Positions 19,215 through 21,072 of a stretch of DNA of 64,000 nt are shown piece after piece. Position numbers and translations under genes: made by a program. The stretch lies in NCBI RefSeq assembly GCF_002198115.1, contig NZ_NGNR01000002.1, positions 541,558-605,557 on the forward strand, read 5' to 3'. Every line of letters begins with the position of its first letter. The first letter of the stretch is position 1. This DNA is from Robiginitalea sediminis. GTDB taxonomy: Bacteria; Bacteroidota; Bacteroidia; Flavobacteriales; Flavobacteriaceae. The notes under the pieces were generated by a model that did not search any database, was not told the DNA's origin, and saw only the letters and a program-made list of their open reading frames with translations.

Positions 19215-20072
19215 CTAGACCACCATTTTTTCGATGGGACATACCAGGATCCCTTCTGCCCCCGCCTGTTTAACCTGGTCCAGGACTTCCCAAAAGCGCT
19301 CCTGCGGAATTACCGTATGTACGGAGCTCCACCCCTCTTCTGCCAGAGGAAGTACCGTGGGGCTTCGCATACCCGGAAGCAGCCGGATAATTTCCTGTAG
19401 TTTGCCATCCGGCACGTTCATCAGGACATACCGGTTGTCCCGGGCGCGCAGGACAGACCTGATCCTGAAACGGAGTTGCTCCAGGATGGCAGCCTGCTTT
19501 TCCCCTATGTGGGGGGAAACGGCCAGTACGGCTTCGCTTCGCATAATGACATCCACTTCCTTCAAGTTGTTTTTAAACAGGGTGCTACCGCTGGAGACGA
19601 TATCGCAAATCGCATCGGCCAGCCCGATATTCGGGGCTATTTCCACGGACCCGTTAATGATGTGCATCTCTGCTTTAACCCCATTAGCATCTAGGAAATG
19701 GGACAGGGTATTGGGGTAAGAGGTCGCGATCCGTTTGCCTTGAAGGTCGGCGGGGCTTTTGTACCCGGAACCCTTGGGAACGGCAACGGAAACTTTGCAT
19801 TTGGAAAAGCCCAGTTTCTCGGCAACTTCCAGGTCCTGCCCTTTTTCAAAGAGGACGTTTTCCCCGATAATGGCAATATCTACGACCCCATCCCGCAGGT
19901 ATTGGGGAATATCCCCGTTGCGCAGGTAGAATACTTCCAGGGGGAAATTGCGGGCGGAAGCCCTGAGCTGGTCCTTCCCGTTATCTATGGGGACTCCGCA
20001 GTCCTTCAGAATCCGAAGGGAATCTTCATTGAGCCTGCCACTTTTCTGTACTGCTATTTTAATGGTATCCAT
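19215..20072 (-). CDS. hisG: ATP phosphoribosyltransferase, long form
   Basis: A 285-residue first enzyme of the pathway. The catalytic part includes KIAVQKSGRLNEDS and DAICDIVSSGSTLFKNNL, and the C-terminal region (about 205-285) is the ACT-like regulatory domain of the long, HisZ-independent form. Histidine feedback is therefore expected at the enzyme as well as at the attenuator upstream. It is the first structural gene of the operon, 81 bases after the leader-peptide stop codon. Confidence 0.96.
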   Translation of the reverse strand: MDTIKIAVQKSGRLNEDSLRILKDCGVPIDNGKDQLRASARNFPLEVFYLRNGDIPQYLRDGVVDIAIIGENVLFEKGQDLEVAEKLGFSKCKVSVAVPKGSGYKSPADLQGKRIATSYPNTLSHFLDANGVKAEMHIINGSVEIAPNIGLADAICDIVSSGSTLFKNNLKEVDVIMRSEAVLAVSPHIGEKQAAILEQLRFRIRSVLRARDNRYVLMNVPDGKLQEIIRLLPGMRSPTVLPLAEEGWSSVHTVIPQERFWEVLDQVKQAGAEGILVCPIEKMVV

Positions 20073-20089: not shown

Positions 20090-20124
20090 AATAAAAAAAC
20101 CCGCTTGATCGCTCAAACGGGTTT
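20090..20124 (-). terminator. Attenuator terminator of the his operon
   Basis: On the minus strand AAACCCGTTTGA and TCAAGCGGGTTT (20097-20124) form a 12-bp stem with one G-U pair, closed by the loop GCGA, and are followed by a T run (20090-20096). It lies between the leader peptide and hisG. The segment GTTTGAGCG (20110-20118), which covers the 3' part of the 5' arm plus the loop, can instead pair with CGCTCAGGC in the leader reading frame. Confidence 0.9.
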
Positions 20125-20153
20125 GGAATATGGTGGAATCACAGCATAGTTCG

Positions 20154-20207
20154 CTACCTCGCCTGAGCGTGGGAGTCGTGGTGGTGATGTGATTTTTTAT
20201 TAAGCAT
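20154..20207 (-). CDS. hisL: His operon leader peptide
   Basis: A 17-codon frame, MLNKKSHHHHDSHAQAR, with five histidines: four in a row at positions 7-10 and one at 13. It ends in TAG, and 29 bases later the attenuator hairpin begins. Stalling at the His codons would leave CGCTCAGGC (20161-20169, codons 13-16) free to pair with the terminator's 5' arm. A second complementarity, AATCACA in codons 4-7 (20188-20194) with TGTGATT after the stop (20137-20143), could form the competing 5' hairpin. The peptide itself probably has no function beyond sensing charged tRNA-His. Confidence 0.9.
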   Translation of the reverse strand: MLNKKSHHHHDSHAQAR

Positions 20208-20215
20208 AACGGGTG

Positions 20216-20244
20216 TAAAAATAAGGCAAAGTTTTGAAAACAAA
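20216..20244 (-). promoter_or_regulatory. Promoter of the his operon
   Basis: The minus strand shows TTTG (20241-20244), a 17-base spacer and TATTTTTA (20216-20223), one base off the -7 consensus. Transcription would begin only a few bases before the leader ATG at 20207, so the leader message may be almost leaderless. Confidence 0.6.
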
Positions 20245-20256
20245 AACAGGAAATGC

Positions 20257-21072
20257 TTAATTATTCCCAAGGATAATTGGTAATCCACTTTCCCCACCGC
20301 CTACCACTATCACCTTGGAATTGGGCGACTCGGAGAGTTTCAATGTAGCTTCTATACCCTTGTCTGTCAGGATTTTATCAGTAAGCGAAGCGCTGAGGAT
20401 CCTGTTGGCATCCGCTTTCCCCTGGGCTTCGATCCGCTGCCGCTCGGCTTCCTTTTCGGCACTAACCAGCCTGAATTCATATTCCAGAGACTGTTGTTCC
20501 TGGCGGAGTTTGCGCTCAATGGCCTCTTTGATGGTTTCCGGGAGGGTTACATCCCGTACTAGGACTTCATTGAGTTGGATGTACTGGTCCTCCACGATCT
20601 TCCGGGTTTCTTCAAAGATTTCAGCCTGGATGGCATCCCTCTTGGTGGAATAAAGCTGTTCCGGGGTGTAGCGCCCTACCACGGAACGGGCGGCAGAGCG
20701 TATGGCTGGCAACAGGATACGATCCTTGTATTCCTCGCTTTTCTCCTTGTGGAGTTTCCCCAAATCGTTGTACTTCGGTTGGAACCAGGCCGAGGCATCC
20801 AATTGGATATCCAGGCCATTGCTGGAGAGCACTTTCATCTTTTCGTATACCTCCTGCTGGCGCACCTCATAAATATAGACTTTGTTCCAGGGGGCCACCA
20901 GGTGGAAGCCTTCCCCCAACGGCGGTTGGTCGGTCACCACCCCGTCGCCAAAGGTGCGGTACAGTACACCGGCTTCTCCGGAACCGACCGTTATGGCCGA
21001 TTTGGATACCAGGATAATCAGGAAAATAAAGGCCAGGATGGCCGGGAGGGCTATTTTAGGTAATCTGTCCAT
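20257..21072 (-). CDS. SPFH/prohibitin-family membrane protein
   Basis: A 271-residue protein with one N-terminal membrane helix (about 8-26), an SPFH/band 7 domain (about 28-190, with GEGFHLVAPW and ARSVVGRYTPEQLY) and a coiled, Glu/Arg-rich C-terminal part (about 180-235) before a Gly-rich end. Prohibitins form large membrane rings that act as scaffolds, often for membrane proteases. It follows the VWA membrane protein gene by 13 bases, so the two are probably co-transcribed. Its transcript would run toward the his promoter. Confidence 0.88.
   Translation of the reverse strand: MDRLPKIALPAILAFIFLIILVSKSAITVGSGEAGVLYRTFGDGVVTDQPPLGEGFHLVAPWNKVYIYEVRQQEVYEKMKVLSSNGLDIQLDASAWFQPKYNDLGKLHKEKSEEYKDRILLPAIRSAARSVVGRYTPEQLYSTKRDAIQAEIFEETRKIVEDQYIQLNEVLVRDVTLPETIKEAIERKLRQEQQSLEYEFRLVSAEKEAERQRIEAQGKADANRILSASLTDKILTDKGIEATLKLSESPNSKVIVVGGGESGLPIILGNN

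Follow-up and report, generated by a model that had tools for sequence, protein, structure and literature searches.

The genome of Robiginitalea sediminis carries a short open reading frame (ORF) rich in His codons ahead of hisG, and the question that it raises is whether translation of this ORF decides if transcription continues into the his operon. We examined the locus within a 64,000-nucleotide stretch of DNA, here called the window, and compared it with the region upstream of hisG in close relatives, in the class Bacteroidia and outside it. Positions below count from the first letter of the window.

A His-codon leader ORF and a terminator precede the his operon

An NCBIfam scan for six genes gave the operon order hisG-hisD-hisC-hisB-hisH-hisA, with a bifunctional hisB, and two further ORFs, hisF-like and hisIE-like by eye, follow downstream (Table 1). 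The short His-codon ORF sits before this operon, as is expected of a his-type attenuator. An intrinsic terminator, identified from the sequence and its folding, lies between the ORF and hisG. The gap from the leader ORF to the hairpin is 29 nt, and the leader stop and the hisG ATG are separated by 81 nt that include the 12-bp terminator. Upstream of the leader is an SPFH/prohibitin-like gene, assigned by eye, for which no NCBIfam match was found at 1e-10.

Table 1. Positions of the leader elements and neighboring genes in the window, with the basis of each assignment.
Feature	Position	Strand	Basis
SPFH/prohibitin-like gene upstream of leader	20260-21072, stop at 20257	minus	by eye
TTTTTG, likely −33 promoter element	20241..20246	minus	sequence; relatives
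TATTTTTA, likely −7 box (TAnnTTTG type)	20216..20223	minus	relatives; box position from the F. psychrophilum account (PMC9723704)
Leader peptide ORF, MLNKKSHHHHDSHAQAR and stop	20207-20154	minus	sequence
His codons 7-10, sensing run	20178..20189	minus	sequence, relatives, ribosome model
Segment A (AAUCACA), partner of C in the terminator state	20194-20188	minus	fold; A:C class test
Segment B (CGCUCAGGCG), antiterminator 5′ strand, within leader codons 13-16	20160..20169	minus	alignment, fold, class test
Segment C (UGUGAUU), partner of A	20143-20137	minus	fold; A:C class test
Segment D (CGUUUGAGCG), partner of B, terminator 5′ arm and loop	20110..20119	minus	alignment, fold
Small hairpin including C, inside B:D in the antiterminator state	20126..20152	minus	constrained folding, window sequence only
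Intrinsic terminator, 12 pairs	arms 20124-20113 and 20108-20097, loop GCGA 20112-20109, U run to 20093	minus	sequence, fold
hisG, operon gene 1	19215..20072	minus	NCBIfam
hisF-like and hisIE-like ORFs (operon down to 12495)	13872-13117, 13106-12495	minus	by eye

The leader RNA has two mutually exclusive pairings

For the leader RNA, the folding energy was −32.6 kcal/mol, compared with −20.1 kcal/mol for dinucleotide shuffles (z = −3.6), and the fold is more stable than 200 of 200 shuffles. Because the fold beats the shuffles and relatives share the His run, the terminator and the pairing, as described below, the leader structure is more than would be expected by chance.

An initial annotation of this DNA had placed the ORF, the terminator, a pairing of CGCTCAGGC (20169-20161) opposite GTTTGAGCG (20118-20110), and an early hairpin between AATCACA and TGTGATT, and all of these coordinates hold. 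The complementarity proposed as antiterminator is confirmed, but its length is 10 bp and not 9, with CGCTCAGGCG (20169-20160) facing CGTTTGAGCG (20119-20110). Beyond this helix there is a bulge, followed by an extra GGU:ACC. Folding indicates that the antiterminator B:D and the terminator are mutually exclusive, as in his-type attenuators.

The leader is conserved among close relatives

Close relatives, mostly Flavobacteriaceae, were sampled through a genus search, with hisG in 10 of 10 genomes (R. sediminis included), and through a scan of named genomes that contributed 80 loci. These 90 hisG loci represent 88 genomes, since Robiginitalea sp. SC105 and R. myxolifaciens appear in both searches. 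A leader is present at 89 of the 90 loci, starting with ATG at 88 and with a non-ATG codon at L054. The sole locus lacking a leader before hisG is that of a Croceivirga MAG (L034); Croceivirga lutea (L080) has one.

Typical leader peptides of these relatives are MRNKNTHHHFYTCPQAR and MKNNRTHHHHFFTCSQAS. HHH occurs in all 88 ATG-started leaders, that of R. sediminis included, and HHHH in 18, while a C-terminal QA plus one residue is shared by 85. Downstream of the leader, CCCGTTTGAG is found in 88 of 88 and is invariant across an alignment (A1) of 80 distinct leaders. The alignment comprises 80 of the 81 distinct leaders; L057 was left out, and L034 and L054 never entered. In L057, from a Maribacter, TAG replaces the Gln codon of the relatives' QAR and ends the leader early; the changed base could keep the antiterminator pairing as U-G.

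The eight-pair core of the antiterminator forms in 96.9% of alignment cells, versus 20–50% when the partner is slid by 1–3 columns. None of these eight B:D pairs changed on both sides within Flavobacteriaceae (80 sequences), the same as in shuffles, and the terminator has changes on both sides at 2 of 11 pairs. Judged from the alignment, Flavobacteriaceae alone display conservation of B:D and not covariation, with both strands nearly frozen. Covarying pairs, for which the initial annotation proposed a comparison with relatives, are thus absent for B:D within this family and appear between families of the class. Both the His run and the paired segments, on whose conservation in close relatives that annotation had made the attenuator depend, are kept.

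R1, a covariance model built from the close-relative leader alignment, had matches at E ≤ 1e-3 in 218 of 249 Flavobacteriaceae genomes (190 of the 210 good ones); E was at most 1e-6 in 209 of the 218 and above that value in nine. Weak R1 matches in Flavobacteriaceae looked like ordinary terminators.

Extra R1 matches were considered as further his-type leaders and rejected: all but one were below 45 bits (12 genomes), and of 14 extra matches, the 12 that could be read in place resembled ordinary terminators by eye. One extra match, L273 (90 bits, genome G147), lies before a hisG.

The arrangement extends across Bacteroidia

Among 198 genomes of the class Bacteroidia, R1 matched 43 at E ≤ 1e-3, just 10 of them above 50 bits. 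The class was surveyed through a HisG search, which located hisG in 87 of the 198 genomes, representing 37 families, and the upstream stretches were read for an ORF that starts with ATG, has no more than 39 residues, contains three or more His as well as an HH pair, and is followed within 140 nt by a terminator-like hairpin. Both elements, the His-run ORF and the terminator behind it, were recognized at 60 of the 87 loci and in 27 of the 37 families. Two of the 60 are doubtful by eye and were kept in the statistics, L212, at which an overlapping ORF was picked over the likely leader, and L220, which is probably a chance match.

The 27 loci that failed comprise 13 without a fitting ORF and 14 with an ORF but an unrecognized terminator. 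Among the former, L209 has a longer ORF, and among the latter, L177, L189, L191 and L199 have a terminator-like hairpin by eye. At 10 of the 87 loci (families f3, f16, f32, f41 and f50), a His-rich leader ORF is present and the terminator was recognized neither by script nor by eye. In family f41, a terminator upstream of hisG was recognized at none of the five loci (L225, L226, L227, L229 and L231), whose His-rich leaders have a strong hairpin in or beside the last codons and stop; another read-out, through Rho or translation, may be in use there. The His-rich ORFs of L192, L206, L208 and L210 (f3, f16 and f50) end in HHSS followed by the stop, a TTCCTC/GAGGAA hairpin spans the stop codon, and no terminator was recognized before hisG.

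We also read 20 hand-picked regions from 128 genomes with hisG, 19 outside the class and one from the same order; 11 contain an ORF with at least three His. Outside the class, the most convincing cases are L239, L240 and L255 (family f71), in which HHH or HHHH is followed by a GC hairpin and a T run.

A near-leaderless start is likely in close relatives

Transcription is predicted from the sequence to start at 20211, 4 nt ahead of the leader ATG. A box of the form TAnnTTTR (or TTCG) precedes the leader ATG at 87 of 88 close-relative loci and ends 7 nt (61 loci), 8 nt (24) or 6 nt (2) before it. At 81 of the 87 loci having the box, the first three letters of a TTT[TG] motif end 20–22 nt before it, the count taking the farthest match within 24 nt. 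In F. psychrophilum, the published account puts the −7 box at −12 to −5 and leaderless mRNAs at only 5.5% (PMC9723704). If the box is placed likewise in the close relatives, their messages would start 2–4 nt before the ATG.

In the wider class, a box within 25 nt before the ATG (4–25 nt) was found in 41 of 60 leaders, compared with 3.9% of 1825 other ATGs. Since the box precedes only 41 of the 60, near-leaderlessness, as judged from sequence, is a trait of close relatives and no class rule. The nearly leaderless message proposed for R. sediminis therefore agrees with its close relatives, where the box lies 6–8 nt before the ATG, and less so with the class as a whole.

Paired segments change together between families

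The paired segments differ in sequence between families. In a Flavobacteriaceae example CTCAAGCG pairs with CGTTTGAG, whereas the pairings are CTCAGGCG with CGTCTGAG in L127, CTCAGGCA with TGTCTGAG in L129, and GGCGGGCC with GGCTTGCC in L131. Across the 60 class leaders, the B:D duplex had −14.8 kcal/mol with the leader's own terminator arm, compared with −11.2 with the arms of other families and −9.8 with a shuffled leader end. With one leader per family (27), the differences gave p = 5.7e-6 against other families' arms and 3.7e-8 against shuffled ends; taken singly, 15–17 of the 27 representatives beat 95% of shuffles. These comparisons indicate that, from one family to another, changes in the antiterminator strand are matched in the terminator arm.

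The early A:C hairpin, also put forward in the initial annotation, is supported more weakly. Its mean in the class test was better than for swapped or shuffled partners (own −10.4 kcal/mol, versus −8.2 for other families and −8.1 for shuffled), with p = 6e-4 (swapped) and 5e-5 (shuffled) for one leader per family. Taken singly, just 6–9 of the 27 beat 95% of shuffles.

Modeling suggests a ribosome-dependent switch

To follow the pairing as a ribosome advances, we folded partial transcripts with an assumed 27-nt ribosome footprint. In the window, B:D had 9–10 pairs while the ribosome stood at His codons 7-10, dropped to 6 and then 3 pairs as it moved to codons 11 and 12, and had none from codon 13; with the ribosome at codon 14 onward, A:C forms and then the terminator. 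With this footprint, the antiterminator strand would already lie under a ribosome at codon 13, which leaves codons 7-10 as the likely sensor. Of the five His residues originally attributed to the leader, the fifth (codon 13) thus falls outside the sensing run.

The same behavior was modeled across the class. Segment D formed six or more pairs with upstream sequence in 59 of the 60 leaders when the ribosome stood at the first His codon and in 58 when it stood at the last; the count was 22 for a ribosome on the stop codon and 34 for ribosome-free RNA. Between the first His and the stop, leaders lost 8.3 pairs on average, compared with 1.5 when the spacers were shuffled (p = 5e-11, or 6e-6 with each family represented once). 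In these models, a ribosome at the His codons frees the antiterminator and one at the stop blocks it.

Folding with and without a ribosome, which had been proposed as a check, thus released B:D at His 7-10 and blocked it from codon 13, but the full transcript of the window did not switch at equilibrium when the ribosome stood at His 7, 8 or 10, where the terminator was slightly favored; at His 9 it was not. The switch would therefore need kinetic ordering, with B:D forming first. Without a ribosome, the partial transcript of the window too prefers the antiterminator. Given this preference, in the window and in 34 of 60 leaders, strong termination in the absence of translation is not predicted.

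Proposed mechanism and alternative explanations

The conserved His run and paired segments, together with the co-change between families, support the classical attenuation proposed at the outset. From sequence comparison and modeling, the locus is very probably a ribosome-mediated transcription attenuator of the his operon. RNA polymerase would start about 4 nt ahead of the leader ATG, and a ribosome would load almost immediately. With ample charged tRNA-His, the ribosome would reach the stop and cover B, and the terminator (D:E) would form before hisG. With charged tRNA-His scarce, it would wait at His codons 7-10, blocking A:C and leaving B free; B would then pair with D before the 3′ arm of the terminator exists, and transcription would enter hisG. 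We infer from these features where transcription starts, that the leader is translated, and that termination occurs and responds to histidine.

The hairpin could instead be merely the terminator of the SPFH-like gene and the His ORF a product of chance. This gene shares the strand of the leader, with 49 bp between its end and the leader ATG, strong terminators are common after genes, and the weak R1 matches elsewhere in Flavobacteriaceae looked like such terminators. However, the leader is kept at 89 of 90 close hisG loci, even where, by eye, the DNA preceding the promoter-like box is different, and a −7 type box stands ahead of it at 87 of 88, making this explanation very improbable. It is somewhat less improbable, yet still unlikely, that the leader controls translation of hisG, through reinitiation or occlusion of the start site, with the terminator secondary. 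The 10 of 87 class loci with a His-rich leader ORF but no recognized terminator suggest that the phylum may also have other read-outs. Against such control here, the 81 nt and 12-bp terminator between leader stop and hisG ATG are far for simple reinitiation, and the covarying pairing aims at the terminator arm.

A ligand- or tRNA-sensing RNA of the T-box or riboswitch type, with an incidental His ORF, would also place structure before hisG, and an undescribed RNA is conceivable since the leader has no Rfam match at gathering scores. Yet the window contains no T-box or riboswitch match at those scores, and the His codons persist while the paired segments differ between families; we regard this explanation as extremely improbable.

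Comparison with known systems

The his attenuator of E. coli and Salmonella (hisL) combines a run of His codons, alternative RNA pairings and an intrinsic terminator that precedes the first his gene. The R. sediminis leader is alike in all three, but differs in that it is about 120 nt long (predicted), its antiterminator strand lies within the last codons, and its ORF begins almost at the predicted 5′ end. Leaderless attenuator peptides exist elsewhere, as in peTrpL of Sinorhizobium. A 2004 study by Vitreschak et al. in FEMS Microbiol Lett reportedly predicted attenuators in Bacteroidetes/Chlorobi, the same idea in the same phylum. Among titles and abstract openings in the literature, we found no other report of a His leader peptide in Bacteroidota.

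Neither the window nor 11 leader loci drawn from several families matched any Rfam model at gathering scores. With the threshold relaxed to E = 10, the leader stretch yielded nine matches that all fell short of their gathering scores. Trp_leader, at 15.7 of 41 bits, and Phe_leader, at 13.7 of 55 bits, were among them; the gammaproteobacterial His_leader was neither among these nine nor found at gathering scores. The Bacteroid-trp leader RNA (RF01692) is described as an amino acid leader of Bacteroidota (PMC2864571); it has Trp codons, and the his leader gives no match to it. In the R. sediminis genome, a sibling leader, MKPKFHTNWWWTQTQGES, lies before trpE (L261:1316-1430); a TATATTTG box stands 6 nt ahead of the ATG of this leader, and a terminator follows. 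The Bacteroid-trp model matches this sibling at 35.9 of 49 bits, below the gathering score. No leader was recognized before two ilvD-family matches in this genome.

Attenuation presumes coupling of ribosome and polymerase, which to our knowledge has been little tested beyond a few model bacteria. The co-changing leader parts in 27 Bacteroidia families argue for selection on coupling at the his leader. We tentatively suggest a class-wide his attenuator, near-leaderless at least in Flavobacteriaceae, in which the ribosome would sit on the first bases of the message and the last codons would double as a switch strand; tight coupling at operon starts might then be ancient and general in Bacteroidia. 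The his leader could serve as a simple reporter of coupling in Bacteroidota and is a candidate family for RNA databases. Shine-Dalgarno sequences have been described as lacking in these bacteria (PMC9723704).

The closest precedent is in F. psychrophilum, for which a 2021 study noted that hisG is preceded by a structured 5′ element, conserved in other Flavobacteriaceae genera and without an Rfam match, and reported strong hints that leader-peptide attenuation operates ahead of amino acid operons (PMC9723704). That element concerns the same gene and the same family; the peptide, the pairings and the spread beyond the family are absent from its main-text section, and the overlap with our findings may be larger. 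The his leader of R. sediminis is thus very probably a known type of attenuator, here in a compact and near-leaderless form, at a hisG element flagged earlier in F. psychrophilum.
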